A DNA stretch of 64,000 bases from Marinobacterium rhizophilum DSM 18822 (GTDB lineage: Bacteria; Pseudomonadota; Gammaproteobacteria; Pseudomonadales; Balneatricaceae): assembly GCF_000378045.1 (NCBI RefSeq), contig NZ_KB899092.1:1-64000 (forward strand), written 5' to 3'. Positions 39,558 through 63,055 of this stretch are shown one piece after another. The stretch's first letter is position 1; every line of letters begins with the position of its first letter. Under the pieces are notes generated by a model. It was not told the DNA's origin. It ran no database searches and was given only the letters and a program-made list of their open reading frames with translations. Made by a program: the position numbers and the translations under genes.

Positions 39558-39667
39558 GGTAGCTCTGCCGGTCCTCCCGCAACGATAAACCGTGAATCTG
39601 GTCAGGCCCGGAAGGGAGCAGCCACAGCGGTCGACTCGTGTGCCGGGATGTGGCTGGTGGAGCTGCC
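39558..39667 (+). ncRNA. ffs: 4.5S RNA of the signal recognition particle
   Basis: The conserved SRP domain IV is present: GGTCAGGCCCGGAAGGGAGC is the Ffh-binding asymmetric and symmetric loop region, and GTGTGCCGGGATG closes the hairpin. The ends GGTAGCTC / GAGCTGCC pair, giving about 110 nt, close to E. coli 4.5S (114 nt). A short C-rich run and TTTT follow. It binds Ffh to target membrane proteins. A decayed integrase begins about 90 bases downstream. Confidence 0.95.
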
Positions 39668-39755
39668 CCCAGATTTTCATAACTCCCTGTTTTGCCTAGA
39701 GTTATCGGTTGTTACGCCCTGTTTTGCATGCCAGTGCGACACACAGGTGCGACAC

Positions 39756-40412
39756 ATGGCCAGACCTTCCGCGTATATTGAGTCCTCTCGGCACTCTATT
39801 TTCTACTTTTGTATCCGAATACCTAAGCCTCTGCGTTCATCTTTTCCGAGACCGGATATCCGTCGTTCGCTTGAGACCAAGTGCAGGCGTGAAGCAGTCA
39901 TCCGCCGCGCCTCGATGCTGGAGCAGGTGCAGTCGTTGTTCTCGTCTGTTGAGGAAGGGCGTAAAGCAGACCTATCTAGACTCTCCTAGAGGCGACCTGA
40001 AAGCCTTTCTAAGCTCCGCTCTGAGCCATGTAGCGCTCGGCATAGATCAGACGCTAAAAGCCACTGAGAGGACTTCTCCAAGGCTGTCTGCTGTGCTTGA
40101 CGAGTACCTGAAGGTCCAGCGTATGGAAGGCGTCAGCGAGAAGGCAATAGGAGACAAACAGTCCGTCGTAGAGTTGCTGATACGGATCGTCGGAGACCTC
40201 CCCATCCATAGCTACCAGCGCGAGCAGGCTCAAGCATTCAAGCAGACCGCCCTTAAACTACCTACGCGAGTGAATTAGAAGGATAAGGTTCTGCTGGAGA
40301 AGGCTATAGCCGAAGCCACCACGACCATCAGTCCGACGACCTTCAACAACTACGTCAAGTACCTGACAGCTATGTTCACGTATGCCGTGCGGGAGGAGTA
40401 CTGCGAGAAGAA
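39756..40412 (+). pseudogene. Tyrosine recombinase (DUF6538-type integrase), broken
   Basis: The reading starts MARPSAYIESSRHSIFYFCI with RIPKPLRSSFPRPDIRRSLE, the N-terminal domain seen in DUF6538 integrases. A frameshift near 39960-40000 moves the frame; the core-binding region continues (LDEYLKVQRMEGVSEKAIGD then LLIRIVGDLPI). An in-frame stop lies at 40276-40278, and residues SPTTFNNYVKYLTAMFTYAV follow before the gene is cut at 40412 by an IS3 remnant. The catalytic domain (Arg...Tyr) is lost. It lies immediately downstream of ffs. Confidence 0.8.
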
Positions 40413-40556
40413 CTGATCTACGCTGAACAGTATCGGACGTTAGAAGAAGCGAAATCAACGATATTCGAATACATCGAAGTGTTTTATAACCGCATACATA
40501 GACACTCGGCTTTGGGGTATATCAGTCCGGCGGGGTATGAGCGCAAATGCGCATAG
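40413..40556 (+). pseudogene. IS3-family transposase OrfB, C-terminal remnant
   Basis: Reads LIYAEQYRTLEEAKSTIFEY then IEVFYNRIHRHSALGYISPA, the conserved C-terminal end of IS3-family OrfB integrases, ending at TAG. The last catalytic Glu region is included (TLEEAKSTIFEYIEVFYN). The 5' part and left end are missing. TGTCTAATTTTTGTGGGTAG, just after it, is probably the IS right end. Confidence 0.85.
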
Positions 40557-41559
40557 CCCAGTGTCTAATTTTTGTGGGTAGGGCACACCAAATACCCTAG
40601 CCATGAACTCAGCAACTCAACCTGAAGTTCTCTCGTGGCATAAAATGTTGTTACTGAAAAACGACACCAAGAATTTTAGGACTAATTCCTAGTGCAACGT
40701 GTCGACACAAACGCGAATAAGACGCATGAGCTTAATGCTCTGTATTGGTGCATGACACTCCCTATGTCGCGCTGTTGCTCGTAGCACTTGGGCTGCCGCG
40801 AACGTATTGGAGCTTAATGGGCGGGGTGTGACGAAGAATTTTTGGTTAGCCATCTTTCGTATTTTTCAGGTTCGTCGTATTTGATAAGTCACCAGTTATC
40901 TAGCTGGATGATGCATCGACGCACTTAAATTAGAGAGTTTTAATGTTGAGGTATGGCTCAATAACTTCCTGATATATCGGCGATATCTTTTACAGTATTT
41001 CGTTTATTGCCGATTAAAACGAATGCTTGAAAACAAGGTTAACGTGCACACGAAAAACGAAGTTGGACGATAACATCGTGTTTGTCGTTCAACAAACCGA
41101 TTGGTTTAGGAAAAAACCCTTGGGATATCCGTCGCATATTGGCTACGCTTTCGATCAGCGTGTTTGAAAGGGCACGATCAGATAGCAGTCGATCACGCAA
41201 AGCCACGGGATCCTGTAAGGACTCGCCGGGCTACCAGGCACATGACTCACAGTGGACGGATATCGCTGTTGGACGTCATAACCTTGGTTGGTTGTAGACC
41301 CACCACCGCATATTCCTCCCTGTTGAAGTCGTGATGACATCGTACGACGTGTCATAGGTGCTTCATTACTGCGAAGCGTGAAGCAAACAGGCATCTGGGT
41401 TTCCTCCAGTGGGGTACGTCGTAACGCAGGCGAATGGACCCAGCATTGGGGAATCCATCCATGCTACACGAGTGCGGAGCGAGCTGCCCCCTGGTTTAGT
41501 TTCATCCGCTAGGATGGCCCGAAGAAAACAAGGGCAACAAGGACAGAGAGGACAGTGAC
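40557..41559. other. Gene-free, decayed accessory DNA (~1 kb)
   Basis: No ORF with a credible start or composition. It is more AT-rich at 40850-41060. A hairpin GTTGGACGA/TCGTTCAAC lies at 41062-41093. GAGCTGCCCCC at 41481-41491 repeats the 3' end of ffs (39660-39670). AAGGACAGAGAGGA near 41538-41553 serves as the ribosome site for luxR. Confidence 0.6.
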
Positions 41560-42327
41560 GTGCCGGACTTAACGGACCTCGAACTCTGCATCGAGCTGAT
41601 CCACTCCGCTGAGACTCCAGAAGAGGCCTTCAGTTACTTCTGCCAGATCGTTGAGGCCAGCGGTTATGACCGGGTGGTGTACAGCCTACTTACCGATCAC
41701 CCTTCACTCGGACTACCGAAATTGCACGGACTTGCTTCCAGCTATCCAGAAGACTGGATGAAGCACTACAACGAGCACGAATACCTCAAGATCGATCCGG
41801 TAGTGCAGGAAGTGCTGAAGATCGGGCGGCCATGCTTTTGGAATGATGTGATCACCAATACTGACCTCTCCGAAGATGCCAACCGCCTCTTGCACGAAGG
41901 GGCTGACGCTGGTCTCCAGTCCGGCATCTCTTTTCCGATGGTCGGACTGGCGGGGGAGGTGGCTGGTTTCGCAATTGCTCGCTCAGATCCGGCCCCTACG
42001 AAAAATGACTACGACCTCATGGCCCGACTCTACCTGTTGGGCACCTTCTTTCACGAAACGTACCGGAACATGTATCGGCAGCAAAAGCGCGGGGAGATAC
42101 CCCAGCTGACTGAGCGCGAACACGATGTCTTGCTCTGGGCTGCCGAAGGCAAAACGGACCAGGAGATCGCCATCATCCTCGGCATCACCTTTCACACCGT
42201 CCGCTTTCATTGGCGGCAAATATTCCGAAAGCTCGATGTGAAGGGGAGGAGCTATGCGATCACGAAATCCATCAGGTTGGGGCTGGTCACGCCGGAGATC
42301 GTGCGGGCGCCCTACCAACATTGGTAG
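41560..42327 (+). CDS. LuxR-type quorum-sensing regulator (solo)
   Basis: A 255-aa regulator. Residues about 15-165 form the autoinducer-binding domain with the conserved AHL-pocket residues visible: Trp and Tyr in DWMKHYNEHEY, Asp-Pro in KIDPVV and Trp in CFWND. Residues about 183-245 are the LuxR HTH (LTEREHDVLLWAAEGKTDQE then IILGITFHTVRFHWRQIFRK). No luxI-type synthase is in the window, so it may sense signals from elsewhere. GTG start with GAGAGGA upstream. It lies in a mobile-type island. The lux-box-like dyad overlaps its last codons. Confidence 0.92.
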   Translation: MPDLTDLELCIELIHSAETPEEAFSYFCQIVEASGYDRVVYSLLTDHPSLGLPKLHGLASSYPEDWMKHYNEHEYLKIDPVVQEVLKIGRPCFWNDVITNTDLSEDANRLLHEGADAGLQSGISFPMVGLAGEVAGFAIARSDPAPTKNDYDLMARLYLLGTFFHETYRNMYRQQKRGEIPQLTEREHDVLLWAAEGKTDQEIAIILGITFHTVRFHWRQIFRKLDVKGRSYAITKSIRLGLVTPEIVRAPYQHW

Positions 42328-42356
42328 GTTCGGTAATGAGAAGCAGTATCTATCAT
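42311..42356 (+). promoter_or_regulatory. Candidate lux box and LuxR-dependent promoter
   Basis: CCTACCAACATTGGTAGG (42311-42328) is a perfect 8-2-8 dyad with CT-N12-AG spacing, the lux/las-rhl box pattern. A TATCAT -10 lies at 42351-42356 with no good -35. Transcription from it would begin near 42362, putting the dyad centre at about -43, the usual place for LuxR-class activators that overlap the -35. The next gene starts at 42502 behind GGGGGG. Confidence 0.65.
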
Positions 42357-42501
42357 TTTATTAGAAGGAAATCGTTTTTTTAATAATGGTTTTACTAACG
42401 CGTTGTTAATGCCATGGTTGGATTTTGTGTGTTCGCTTAGGTGGGGAATTAAACTTAAACTTTGACACGACTAACTCAGATTATTACGGGGGGTTAACGC
42501 G

Positions 42502-44944
42502 ATGAATAAAAATGTTTCGATAGGACTGTCGGTACTTATTTTAATAATTCTCTATGCACCGGTCGCGTCATCTAATGAACCTTATCTCGTAAGTGATATT
42601 AATCCAGGTGGTGGCGGAAGCAGTCCAATGGACACAGTTAGTATGGGAGGATTCGTTTACTTTTCTGCTAATGATTTTGGTGATTTTGGTCGTGAGTTGT
42701 GGAAAAGTGATGGTACCAATGAAGGGACTGTTTCGGTCAAGGATATCTTTCCCGGCAGTAGTAGCAACCCAGACTCTCTAACTCCTATAGGAAATAAGTT
42801 GTTTTTTGTTGCACGTGATGAAACTAGTAATGAAGAATTATGGATAAGTGACGGAACCGAATCTGGAACCTTTATGGTTAAAGATATCAATCCTTTTGGA
42901 AGCAGCAATATAGAGTATCTTACCGACGTAAATGGAACTTTATTTTTCGCGGCTGACGATGGTGTTCACGGGAAGGAGCTGTGGAAAAGTGATGGTACTG
43001 AGGCTGGCACTATAATGGTAAGTGATATTAACACTGAGTTTTTTGATGCAGGCAGTTTCCCGGAAGAGCTAACCAATGTTAATGGAGTTTTGTTTTTCAG
43101 CGCAGCTAATAATGATGCCGTAGGCACTGAGCTATGGAAAAGTGATGGCACTGATGCGGGGACTGTATTGGTTAAGGATTTGAATACTTCTTATCAACAT
43201 AGTGGAGACCCTCATTCACTCATATCTGCAAATGGGCTACTGTATTTTTAATACTGCGGTTGGTTTTTGGGTCAGTGATGGTACAGAAGCTGGGACGGTG
43301 TTAGTTCCAGTTCCATTTGAGTTTTTTTACACTTCGGCAAGCAGATACTATATGGATGGATACATTTATTGTAGTTGTGGACCGACCTCATTTGATGCTG
43401 AGTTATGGAAGTTAAACACTAACACATTCGAGTGGGTCCTAGTTAAAGACATTTTTTCAGGTGAGTGGGGGGGGAGTAATCCATCAACATTTAAGTCAGA
43501 TAATGGAATATTGTATTTTGTTGCTAGAACCGCTTCTTCTGGTTATGAGCCTTGGCGTAGCGACGGTACTGAAGCGGGAACCTATCAATTAAAAGATGTA
43601 CGTGAGGGAGTCGAAAGTTCCACTGAGGGCTTGGTATTTAAAAGCCATATTATAAACGGAAATCTATACTTTGCTGCTAACGATGGCATAAATGGAAAAG
43701 AGTTGTGGGTGAGTGATGGGTCGCCGGAAGGTACTTTAATGGTGTCAGATATTTGGCCTGGTGAGAACAGTTCGGACCCTGATTTTTTTGCCAGTGTAAG
43801 CGAAACCCTATTTTTTAAAGCCTATGAAGTTAATAACGGGATTGAGTTATGGGCGTTGAACACAGGTAGTGTTGATTCGGATGGGGACGGCATTAATGAT
43901 AGTACAGACAATTGTCCGGCTGTACCCAACCCGGTGCAGGTAGACAGCGATGGTGATGGGCTGGGAGATGCTTGCGACCCCTTCCCCAACGACCCGGACA
44001 ATGATGCCGATGGCGATGGATTCGGTGCCGACGTCGATAACTGTCCGGCGGTGGCCAACCCCAGCCAGACCGATGCTGACGCTGACGGCCTCGGCGATGC
44101 CTGTGACGCTTACCCCAACGACCCGGACGATGATGCCGATGGCGATGGATTCGGTGCGGACGTCGACAACTGTCCGGCGGTGGCCAACCCCGGCCAGGAA
44201 GATGCCGACGGAGACGGTATCGGCGATGCCTGCGATGGCCTGATCGATTCGGATGGCGACGGGATCGAAGATGGGCTAGACAACTGCCCGCTTGATCCTA
44301 ATCCTGGCCAATTAGACTCTGATGGAGACGGTATCGGCGACCAGTGCGATGTAAATGGCAACACCGATGTGGATGGCGACGGCGTTTCTGACCGAAAGGA
44401 TAACTGTCCGATTGTCGCTAACCCGAGCCAGGCCGACGCAGATGGCGACGGCGTCGGCGACGCTTGCGATGCTACACCAGATGAATCCGATACCGACAGA
44501 GATGGTGAGTCAGACACGACAGATAACTGCCCGGCAACTCCGAACCCTGATCAGTCTGATACAGATGGCAACGGTGTGGGTGACGCCTGTGAAAAACTCA
44601 CGGGTAAAGGCGACATGGATGGCGATGGTGTTGTTGACAACAAAGACAACTGTCCATTCATTCCTAACGCCAGTCAAAGCGATTTGAACGGCGACGGTGT
44701 AGGCGATGCCTGCGATGTTCCGCCACCGTCAGTCAGCGATGCGGACGGCGATGGATTCGTTGATTCCGCAGATAACTGTCCCCTAGTTGCAAATGATCCT
44801 CAGACCGATACCGATGGCGACGGTATGGGCGATGCCTGCGACGATGACATCGATGACGATGGCCTGCCCAATCACCGTGATGATTGCCCAGCTCTAGGGG
44901 ACCTTGGAAACGGCATTGATCGCAAAGGCTGCCCAATCATTTAA
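42502..44944 (+). pseudogene. Secreted ELWxxDGT-repeat / thrombospondin type 3 repeat protein (one frameshift)
   Basis: An exported protein of about 813 aa if the frame is restored. Signal peptide MNKNVSIGLSVLILIILYAPVA. Residues about 30-450 carry seven to nine ELWxxDGT..GT repeats (RELWKSDGTNEGT, KELWKSDGTEAGT, TELWKSDGTDAGT, YEPWRSDGTEAGT), likely a beta-propeller. From 43870 there are about nine Ca2+-binding TSP3 repeats (DSDGDGINDSTDNCP, DADGDGIGDACD). The frame shifts at a T5 run (43245-43249): dropping one T restores NGLLYFNTAVGF. This could be mutation, phase variation or a sequencing error. The first 1.3 kb is AT-rich compared with the rest. Confidence 0.8.
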
Positions 44945-44953
44945 GGCTACGTT

Positions 44954-44979
44954 GCCCCGGGGACCACTGGCCCCGGGGC
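44954..44979 (+). terminator. Hairpin after the TSP3 gene
   Basis: GCCCCGGGG-ACCACTGG-CCCCGGGGC, a perfect 9-bp GC stem 10 bases after the stop codon. No T-run, so it may work with Rho or stabilise the 3' end. Confidence 0.55.
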
Positions 44980-45049
44980 CCAATGCTCTGCCAACGACAA
45001 CCGAGGCGGATGCCCCAAGCAACGGACGCTGAAAACGGAGGAGCCCACC

Positions 45050-46894
45050 ATGCGGTACCCATTGACCTTTTCAGCCGGGATACGATCCCTTCGAATAGAA
45101 TGGATCCGCAGAGCCAGTAAGTCTGGTGCGTTGGTGCTGGCCACCGCCCTCATGGTTTCTCTCTTCCCGCCAAAGACCCAAGCCGAAAGTTGGAATGACA
45201 TGTTTAAAGGCATGGCCCGAGACATGATCGAGGAGGGCACGCGGGCTATCCGGGAAAGCAACGACCGTTCCGACCGAAACAATCGACAACAACAACCGTA
45301 CGAGCAGCAACCCCATCAGCCCTACCAGCAACCCCAACAGCAGTACCAATACCAGCAACCCGCTCAGCAGCCTGTACAACGCTCAAGCCAGTATTCCAGA
45401 GCCCAGATCCAAGACATCCAAACCCGTCTCCAAATGCTGGGCTACAACCCCGGCCCGGCCGATGGCCTGTTTGGCGACAAGACGGCCAAGGCGATTGCGC
45501 AGTTTGAGATTGACCAGGGGTTGCCGGTGACGGGAAAGCCAGGTCGGACGCTGATAATCGCACTTCACAGCGCCGTAGCACAGTCGAACCGGAGCTATCA
45601 GGCAGGTGCCGGGGCTCGGGCGGGACAGTCGATTGGGCAATCAGCGTCGAGTCGATCGGAGCTTTCTCCTTCAGTGCCTGATATGTCGAAGGATCCAACG
45701 GTACAGGCGATGACGCGCTGCATGAACGCCTACACCCAGTGTCGTAGGCAGTCACTTGCTTCTCCACAAGTGTGTGCGCAGCAATATAGAGTCTGTTTAG
45801 TCGGCGAACCCACTGAATATCGTCCGGTGAAGCCGAGAAAAGAGAGTGCTGTCGCCCACCAGAAGCTCACTCCATCGAAGCCAGAGTCGGTTCACCAAAA
45901 GGCCCACAAGCTGCCAGATCCTGACCCTATAGAGGAAGTCAAAGCGACAGCGATTGCTGCCGCACAGACCCTAAACGCAGCGCAAGATAAAGACGTTTCG
46001 GTGGGTAAACAGGCAGAGGTCCCTCAAATCGATCAGCGAGAGCTTCAATTAAAAACTTCGACGACCCGAAGGACACTTATAACCACCAGTCCTACTGAGT
46101 TCTTCTGGACAAGTATGGGTAACGAGCTGAATCAGGCCGCGACTACCTTGCATCAAGTTAACGAACGAAACAAAGCACTGCGTCGGCATGCCCGCAAGCT
46201 ACACAAGGCGTTAGAGGTCTGCTGTTCCTGCTCCTACAGGAATGAAATACTCGATGAATTCATCAAATGGCAGGCGGAAGCCCTCTGGAGCACCCAGGTA
46301 ACCCAAAATGCGATGGGGACATTGCAGGGAAATGTTGATTTTGGGCACCTGATCCCGTCACGGGAGCAGGACAGGGAAAGGCTAATTGCAATGGCTCCAC
46401 CACCCTGCGAGCCTCCTACTGATATCCCTGAACCCTCGGTAGAGGCTAACGACAGAGGTATCTCAGTCAATCGTAAAGTAGATTGGGGGCTGGTACCGGA
46501 CAACTTCCGGCTACCAACACCGCCCAAGAAGCAGACACGTGGTGATCTGCTGTATACAGCACATGTACAGATACCCGGGCGTCTGAGGACAACTGCGATT
46601 GATTATTACAACCGACATAGGCTCCCTGGCTATGATGACCTGACACGAATAGAAGAGGACATCTATGAAAAAGATGTGGCCCCGTTCAGGGATGATCCTG
46701 TGCTTCACTGTTACTACGTGAGCCCTGACTTCCAGGGGTCTAAGGTCATTCGGTACTGGTATCGGAAACGACCGGATGAGTTCGATGCTAATTATCTGAG
46801 ATCGCGCCTGAGAAACCACCCGATACTCCATATCAGGGCGCCAAATGACAAGTGTCCACAGGACATCGATACGGCGATGGCGATGCAGTTTTAG
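45050..46894 (+). CDS. Secreted Gln-rich protein with peptidoglycan-binding domain
   Basis: A 614-aa protein. The N-terminus is long and basic before a hydrophobic span (SGALVLATALMVSLFPPKTQ) and a possible cleavage site AES. A Gln/Pro/Tyr-rich linker follows (residues 78-115). PG_binding_1 is at about residues 120-175 (IQTRLQMLGYNPGPADGLFG). The C-terminal ~350 residues are not recognised; Cys pairs (CMNAYTQCRR, CCSCSYRNE) suggest disulfides. GGAGG precedes the ATG. It may act on or anchor to the cell wall and is next to the quorum-linked exoprotein. Confidence 0.75.
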   Translation: MRYPLTFSAGIRSLRIEWIRRASKSGALVLATALMVSLFPPKTQAESWNDMFKGMARDMIEEGTRAIRESNDRSDRNNRQQQPYEQQPHQPYQQPQQQYQYQQPAQQPVQRSSQYSRAQIQDIQTRLQMLGYNPGPADGLFGDKTAKAIAQFEIDQGLPVTGKPGRTLIIALHSAVAQSNRSYQAGAGARAGQSIGQSASSRSELSPSVPDMSKDPTVQAMTRCMNAYTQCRRQSLASPQVCAQQYRVCLVGEPTEYRPVKPRKESAVAHQKLTPSKPESVHQKAHKLPDPDPIEEVKATAIAAAQTLNAAQDKDVSVGKQAEVPQIDQRELQLKTSTTRRTLITTSPTEFFWTSMGNELNQAATTLHQVNERNKALRRHARKLHKALEVCCSCSYRNEILDEFIKWQAEALWSTQVTQNAMGTLQGNVDFGHLIPSREQDRERLIAMAPPPCEPPTDIPEPSVEANDRGISVNRKVDWGLVPDNFRLPTPPKKQTRGDLLYTAHVQIPGRLRTTAIDYYNRHRLPGYDDLTRIEEDIYEKDVAPFRDDPVLHCYYVSPDFQGSKVIRYWYRKRPDEFDANYLRSRLRNHPILHIRAPNDKCPQDIDTAMAMQF

Positions 46895-62536: not shown

Positions 62537-62590
62537 TCTGAACGGTCGTTCAGACCGATGGTTTTTCACCTTTCACCTTTCACCTTTCAG
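62537..62590 (+). repeat. Hairpin and TTTCACC tandem repeat between convergent genes
   Basis: TCTGAAC-GGTC-GTTCAGA (62537-62554) followed by TTTTT (62562-62566) may act as a weak terminator for minE. Three exact TTTCACC heptamers follow (62564-62584) and overlap the 3' end of the next minus-strand gene, changing its last codons. Confidence 0.5.
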
Positions 62591-63055
62591 CAGTGCGCGC
62601 ACCCGGTCTACTGTTCGGTTGGGGAACTGGCGGTAATCGGGGTAGGGCGTGAGCAAAATGTTATCTCGTACCCATACCCGCCCTTCGGTATCCAGTGGCA
62701 TGAAATTGGCGGTATCCAGTCCCAGGCGCTGCCAGCTGGCCTTGCCGGCGATCAGGTGCCAGCGGGCGTCGAGTAGCAGGCTGTCGGCGAAACAGATCAC
62801 CTCGTCCTCGTGCAGTACTGCTTGATCCCGGTAATCCTGCCAGCGCATGCTGGCTGGACTGCACAGTTTGGCCAGTATGCTGAAAATCTTGCGCCAGTGA
62901 TTGCCGTTGTGACGGATCAGCGCCGGTACATCGGGCGCCTGTGGGCAAACATCGGCCTGCGGCCAGAGAGGGCGGTTGGGCAGGTACAGTGCGACGCGGG
63001 CGTCAGGAGCGCCTAGCAGCGCACAGTCCTGTGTCATGGTGGTTGATGGTGTCAT
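62573..63055 (-). CDS. Uncharacterised protein (160 aa), DUF6942-like
   Basis: A 160-aa cytosolic protein (VALYLPNRPLWPQADVCPQA; IRHNGNHWRKIFSILAKLCS). It resembles a small uncharacterised family found next to hrpB, possibly DUF6942; that name is not certain. Its start overlaps the hrpB stop by four bases (ATGA). The heptamer repeat forms part of its C-terminal codons (LLKGER). Confidence 0.7.
   Translation of the reverse strand: MTPSTTMTQDCALLGAPDARVALYLPNRPLWPQADVCPQAPDVPALIRHNGNHWRKIFSILAKLCSPASMRWQDYRDQAVLHEDEVICFADSLLLDARWHLIAGKASWQRLGLDTANFMPLDTEGRVWVRDNILLTPYPDYRQFPNRTVDRVRALLKGER

Follow-up and report, generated by a model that had tools for sequence, protein, structure and literature searches.

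For the majority of LuxR solos, to our knowledge, the genes they control are not known. By analogy, the nearest known case to the locus described here is QscR of Pseudomonas aeruginosa, a solo that activates a single linked operon, PA1895-1897, from a site at -54 to -29 (available part of PMC6113619), while the Pseudomonas solos that were tested are, in the available part of PMC8546723, mostly without effect on their neighbours. In the accessible text of PMC7432010 a lux box is a dyad of 20 bp, NNCT-N12-AGNN, located in the promoter of a target gene. Here we analyse a locus of Marinobacterium rhizophilum DSM 18822 (GCF_000378045.1, a 58-contig draft of 5.36 Mb) in a stretch of 64,000 nucleotides, NZ_KB899092.1 positions 1-64,000, hereafter the window. 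We consider it likely that an island-borne LuxR solo, probably sensing foreign acyl-homoserine lactones (AHLs), uses a class-II lux box to activate an exoprotein gene linked to it. Among the papers listed by a literature search, none was, by its title and the start of its abstract, on this LuxR-box-exoprotein module, whose features are the following.

39566..39662, + strand: SRP RNA gene (Rfam RF00169, 76.7 bits), likely island integration site
39709..40413, + strand: broken integrase-like stretch, from a reading of the sequence
41560..42327, + strand: LuxR-type regulator, apparent solo, 255 aa, GTG start; Autoind_bind and GerE/LuxR helix-turn-helix domains, recognition helix HTVRFHW
42310..42329, no strand assigned: putative lux box, 20-mer CCCTACCAACATTGGTAGGT, CT-N12-AG, overlapping the luxR stop codon; dyads also in Ferrimonas and Catenovulum
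42351..42356, + strand: candidate -10 hexamer TATCAT, 5/6 matches to TATAAT, offset 41 from the start of the 20-mer
42502..43251, + strand: first piece of the ELWxxDGT repeat gene, 249 aa, TIGR04534 261 bits, 41-42% G+C; the frame ends here; probably inserted relative to Ferrimonas
43202..44944, + strand: second piece, ELWxxDGT/TSP3, a 580-aa open frame in another frame; TIGR04534 159.9 bits, TSP_3 264.3 bits
45050..46894, + strand: peptidoglycan-binding exoprotein, 614 aa, PG_binding_1 53.9 bits, with QAESWND after a signal-peptide-like start; Ferrimonas match

Island setting and downstream genes

The SRP RNA site is kept in all six same-genus genomes and similarity beyond it ends variously, from 39679 to 40413 (homologous DNA reaches 40412-40413 in the genomes G001 and G002); this position has the look of a hotspot for integration within the genus. 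The integrase-like open reading frame gave no Pfam, NCBIfam or PHROG match. Within 39566-41500, after this broken stretch, a piece reads like the end of an IS3 transposase. The island-borne character attributed to the regulator agrees with the SRP RNA site, with the variable sequence past it among same-genus genomes and with the G+C content, which is 55-57% in luxR, drops to 41-42% immediately past the box and is back at 55-61% in the TSP3 half.

Among 57 genomes of relatives, its own included, the window genome alone has a close match to this LuxR. The next best protein shares 33% identity with it over residues 64-245 (E 2.8e-22); in the six same-genus genomes, the best match (E 5.7e-10) lies in the DNA-binding part. 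A single-protein scan of genome contigs, which detects close relatives only, gave one match, in Ferrimonas sediminicola, and this is the one genome of 14 from Ferrimonas with a close LuxR. Given this patchy distribution, luxR was very probably acquired horizontally.

The F. sediminicola protein (locus L003) is the closest relative found, 59-60% identical to the window LuxR. Its module holds an ISL3-type transposase and is flanked by a 121-nt direct repeat (76%; L003 5577-5697 and 9913-10033) that reaches into tRNA-Leu. The next gene starts 128 bases after the luxR stop and encodes a peptidoglycan-binding exoprotein (PG_binding_1, 54.0 bits) which is 38% identical to the window protein at 45050-46894 over residues 29-176 (E 1.5e-23); aligned over the whole length, the two show 32% identity with long gaps. 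No ELWxxDGT gene lies between the Ferrimonas luxR and box and this exoprotein. Plasmids searched for the peptidoglycan-binding protein gave no match.

The original prediction had made the ELWxxDGT/TSP3 protein the main target of the regulator, with the peptidoglycan-binding protein only "perhaps" controlled as well. The Ferrimonas gene order reverses this ranking: there the box directly precedes the exoprotein gene, so the candidate named with a "perhaps" is the conserved one. The ELWxxDGT/TSP3 gene of the window is an addition, with an AT-rich first half and a reading frame broken in two. On sequence comparison, then, the exoprotein of 45050-46894 is the conserved partner of luxR and the box, and we read the ELWxxDGT/TSP3 gene as a later insert relative to Ferrimonas. 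When the Ferrimonas leader was compared with the window sequence before 45050 or after the -10, no homology stood out from that of shuffled sequences (157 and 159 of 500 were as good), and the comparison thus gave no right edge for the insert.

The insert raises the question of whether the module still works. The box could be real and the module decaying, the inserted frame-split gene now separating the switch from its conserved target so that nothing useful is controlled. The frame split, the G+C step at the insert and the broken integrase-like stretch upstream would fit such decay. However, each of luxR, the box, the -10 and the gene for the peptidoglycan-binding protein is open or intact, the 105 bases from 44944 to 45050 permit read-through, and the change of frame, at 43202-43251, is a single break in an otherwise open gene of a draft assembly, which could be real or a sequencing error. 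We therefore regard decay as unlikely, and a functional switch upstream of the conserved exoprotein gene as the better reading.

The regulator and its relatives

The window LuxR has both domains of the AHL-type LuxR family (Autoind_bind, 103 bits for a threshold of 23; GerE, 54.2 bits for a threshold of 23.5), and its nearest solved relatives are RhlR, CviR, QscR and LasR. Residues described as typical of quorum-sensing LuxR proteins in the available part of PMC4338825 (W57, Y61, D70, P71, W85, G113, E178, L182 and G188 of TraR) correspond to W66, Y70, D79, P80, W94, G122, E187, L191 and G197 here, the equivalents being placed through RhlR and CviR alignments. These features support assignment to the AHL type and would suit an AHL response. 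Autoind_bind has one match in the genome. No LuxI was found there by a PF00765 (Autoind_synth) search, which covers the LuxI type of AHL synthase: the sole match is an exosortase-system acyltransferase (TIGR03694, 243.7 bits). Hence the window LuxR looks like a solo, and the absence of luxI first noticed in the window extends to the whole genome for LuxI-type synthases. Beside the acyltransferase, a 200-aa open reading frame (L002 447-1049) reads like a GNAT or LuxI-like enzyme; it gave no Pfam or NCBIfam match.

Solos that respond to other ligands, act without ligand or repress are on record (PMC10134790, in the part available), and the window LuxR might bind its box in one of these ways. This seems less probable still than decay of the module, since the equivalents of the nine AHL-type residues are present in all three proteins with the recognition helix discussed below (window, Ferrimonas and Catenovulum) and the spacing from box to -10 is of the activator type, as for the -54 to -29 site of QscR (PMC6113619, same part). 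An AHL-responsive activator thus remains our preferred reading.

The LuxR of the Catenovulum plasmid pCadTS8_1 (locus L051) is 30% identical to the window protein and has a similar recognition helix. Indeed, the motif T[VI]R[FY]HW is common to the window, Ferrimonas and Catenovulum proteins and was absent from ten LuxR loci and 30 further loci that we read, as well as from the Rhizobium CB3060 and Aeromonas plasmid LuxRs; in its wider form, T[VI]R[FYW]HW, it occurred among 214 loci compared only in the window genome, Ferrimonas and Catenovulum. A composite pattern of box and HW helix matched once in each of its sources (window, L003, L051) but in none of 359 further genomes sampled from the class and in no viral contig. 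The helix-only pattern likewise matched 0 viral contigs, and profile searches of viral contigs gave no relative. The bare box pattern was present in at least 120 viral stretches, which we take as chance since none has an HW helix among the matches listed.

In the tree, the window and Ferrimonas proteins are grouped (99/97) and joined by Catenovulum (97/92). On the best tree an Asticcacaulis LuxR falls, with weak support, inside this group (92/45, long branches), so that the three HW proteins do not form a single clade. The Asticcacaulis protein carries ENTVNSHF in its helix, luxI is present, and no box of the window type was found at its luxR.

The dyad and its promoter context

The 18-mer CCTACCAACATTGGTAGG, read from the sequence at 42311-42328, contains the luxR stop codon TAG (42325-42327), and its CT-N12-AG spans 42312-42327; extended to 20 nucleotides, it has the NNCT-N12-AGNN form of a lux box. 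The spacing, the overlap with the stop and the TATCAT hexamer are all as first described. The dyad is real as well, but not the "perfect" 18-bp one that had been announced: two 8-bp arms enclose a central non-symmetric CA, which leaves the 18-mer with 2 mismatches to its own reverse complement. Its centre, 42319.5, lies about 42.5 bases upstream of the predicted start near 42362, so the proposed activator distance holds, in agreement with the conserved dyads and the -10 spacing considered below. The CTACCA half of the window-type box recurs in las/rhl boxes of P. aeruginosa. A literature text search for one las/rhl-type 16-mer gave no match.

The dyad is kept in both other loci (2/2) whose LuxR has the HW-type helix, so the comparison across homologous loci that had been proposed as a check came out in favour of the original prediction on this point. 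In Ferrimonas, CTACCGTTCCCGGTAG spans the luxR stop at the same position as in the window, in the form CTACCG-N4-CGGTAG. Position, CT-N12-AG and arm symmetry are preserved, and the inner pair is changed from A-T in the window to G-C in both arms; 11 of 16 set positions match the window 18-mer, and the site is missed by a window-box search at 3 mismatches. Random synonymous codings yielded such a dyad in 1867 of 200000 cases for the Ferrimonas luxR tail and in 4029 of 200000 for the window tail, and coding need explains the dyad poorly. In Catenovulum, CTACCAAAATTGGTAG lies 5 bases past the luxR stop, outside the coding sequence. The gene after it encodes a secreted-looking protein of 346 aa; by eye, its start (LSGCGDSD) resembles that of a lipoprotein, and neither Pfam nor PHROG gave a match.

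No -35 was seen in the window, and a promoter scan gave no + strand sigma-70 site there. We lined up the three HW-type loci with eight other LuxR loci with boxes (n=11), two of the eight (L038, L039) being chosen by eye and failing the dyad filter. The best TATAAT match stands at offset 41 or 42 in 6 of these eight (in L068 offsets 42 and 33 tie; L038 has no -10 match). Over the 11 loci, the mean number of matches is 3.09 at offset 41 and 2.45 at offset 42, versus 0.91-2.18 at the 23 other offsets from 30 to 54. The window fits this usual spacing well. Ferrimonas and Catenovulum fit it loosely: Ferrimonas has TAGCAT (4/6) at offset 41 and a better match, CATAAT, at offset 50, and the better match in Catenovulum, TATATT, is at offset 44. 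Moreover, the 15 post-stop bases with the -10 are identical at 10 of 15 positions between the window and Ferrimonas, and the neighbouring bins at 5, 5 and 3 of 15.

The dyad might also be read as an RNA hairpin at the luxR end, a terminator or stabiliser rather than a DNA site. Fold predictions for the window and Catenovulum RNAs contain such a hairpin, and the paired change in Ferrimonas would suit an RNA stem too. However, the hairpin is missing from the predicted Ferrimonas fold, the z-scores of the fold analysis are -0.28, -1.16 and -1.42, no T run follows the dyad, the + strand terminator scan was negative there, and the -10 spacing is common to LuxR/LuxI loci. On the terminator scan and the fold results we set this reading aside as very improbable.

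Symmetry by itself is modest evidence, since dyads of similar size are not rare in the window: those with 8-bp arms and a 2-nt gap number 4, versus 1.0 expected from 30 first-order Markov sequences, and those that also have CT-N12-AG number 2 (at 42311 and 62537) versus 0.07. The case for a lux box is therefore carried by place and conservation. A dyad due to chance, for which these four might be cited, is scarcely credible given that the window contains a single CTACC-N6-GGTAG (0.01 expected), as do L003 and L051, always at the luxR 3' end (0.00-0.01 expected across the three). The dyad is thus, on comparative grounds, very probably a lux box.

Other dyads were noted. The second CT-N12-AG dyad, TCTGAACGGTCGTTCAGA at 62537-62554, follows a minD-like gene and stands immediately past the 3' end of an oppositely oriented open reading frame (62573-63055); it is possibly a terminator. 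CCTACCAANNTTGGTAGG with up to 2 mismatches was found at one other place in the 5.36 Mb genome, as was its backwards control; this 2-mismatch copy, TTTACCAAATTTGGTAGG (G000:C2:382002-382019, L035), is no excess over the control.

A proposed circuit and its place among known systems

In the circuit that we propose, the LuxR solo and its lux box would form a small, horizontally acquired module. LuxR dimers with a ligand, most likely an AHL from other bacteria, would bind 42310-42329, a site whose centre is near -42.5, and bring RNA polymerase to the -10 at 42351, giving class-II activation without a -35. Transcription would run rightwards, reading first the frame-split ELWxxDGT/TSP3 gene that now lies between the promoter and the putative conserved target, and would have to continue into 45050 to reach it. 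The mostly ineffective solos of PMC8546723 count against this explanation, as does the number of comparison loci with the box and helix type, which is two. The claim of a "new regulon" was too strong, as a single box is seen and QscR-type solos with one linked operon are known.

That the same layout recurs in two other bacteria suggests a portable means by which a bacterium listens to its neighbours. More tentatively, these loci may be mobile listening cassettes, in which an HW-helix LuxR solo, an ACC/GGT box and a class-II promoter set in the place of luxI would drive exchangeable secreted cargo and spread at SRP-RNA or tRNA sites and on plasmids. The cargo would be the peptidoglycan-binding protein in two genera and an unrelated secreted-looking protein in a third, the ELWxxDGT/TSP3 protein being added here. 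In Ferrimonas, a few hundred bases contain the receptor, the site, the promoter and the conserved target, which makes the circuit testable in one reporter experiment. If AHLs switch it on, this would be a clean case of a non-producer that responds to the signals of others by altering its surface or secreted proteins, and a horizontally mobile one.

Like QscR (PMC6113619, in the part available), the window combines a LuxR solo, a site of the CT-N12-AG type and a linked target. In contrast to qscR and its operon, which are divergent and whose host makes AHLs, the window luxR and its proposed target point the same way, the luxR stop lies within the box and the genome search gave no LuxI. The other comparison is with standard luxR-lux box-luxI loci. 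Counting as a box any CT-N12-AG close to the luxR 3' end whose arms form six or more pairs, we find one in 6 of the ten other LuxR loci, five with a TGT...ACA core and one (L043) with ATC...GAT. In L043 the dyad, AACTATCATTTTTGATAGTT, is in the luxR stop region and the next open reading frame looks like a pirin, not luxI. In all three scanned loci of the standard layout (L037, L041, L042), Pfam identifies the next gene as luxI. The window resembles these and other standard loci in having the box between luxR and the next gene and the -10 at offset 41-42. It differs from them in its core (ACC...GGT for TGT...ACA), in its helix (xTVRFHW for an ERTVxFHL-like one) and in what follows, an exoprotein gene where the standard loci have luxI.
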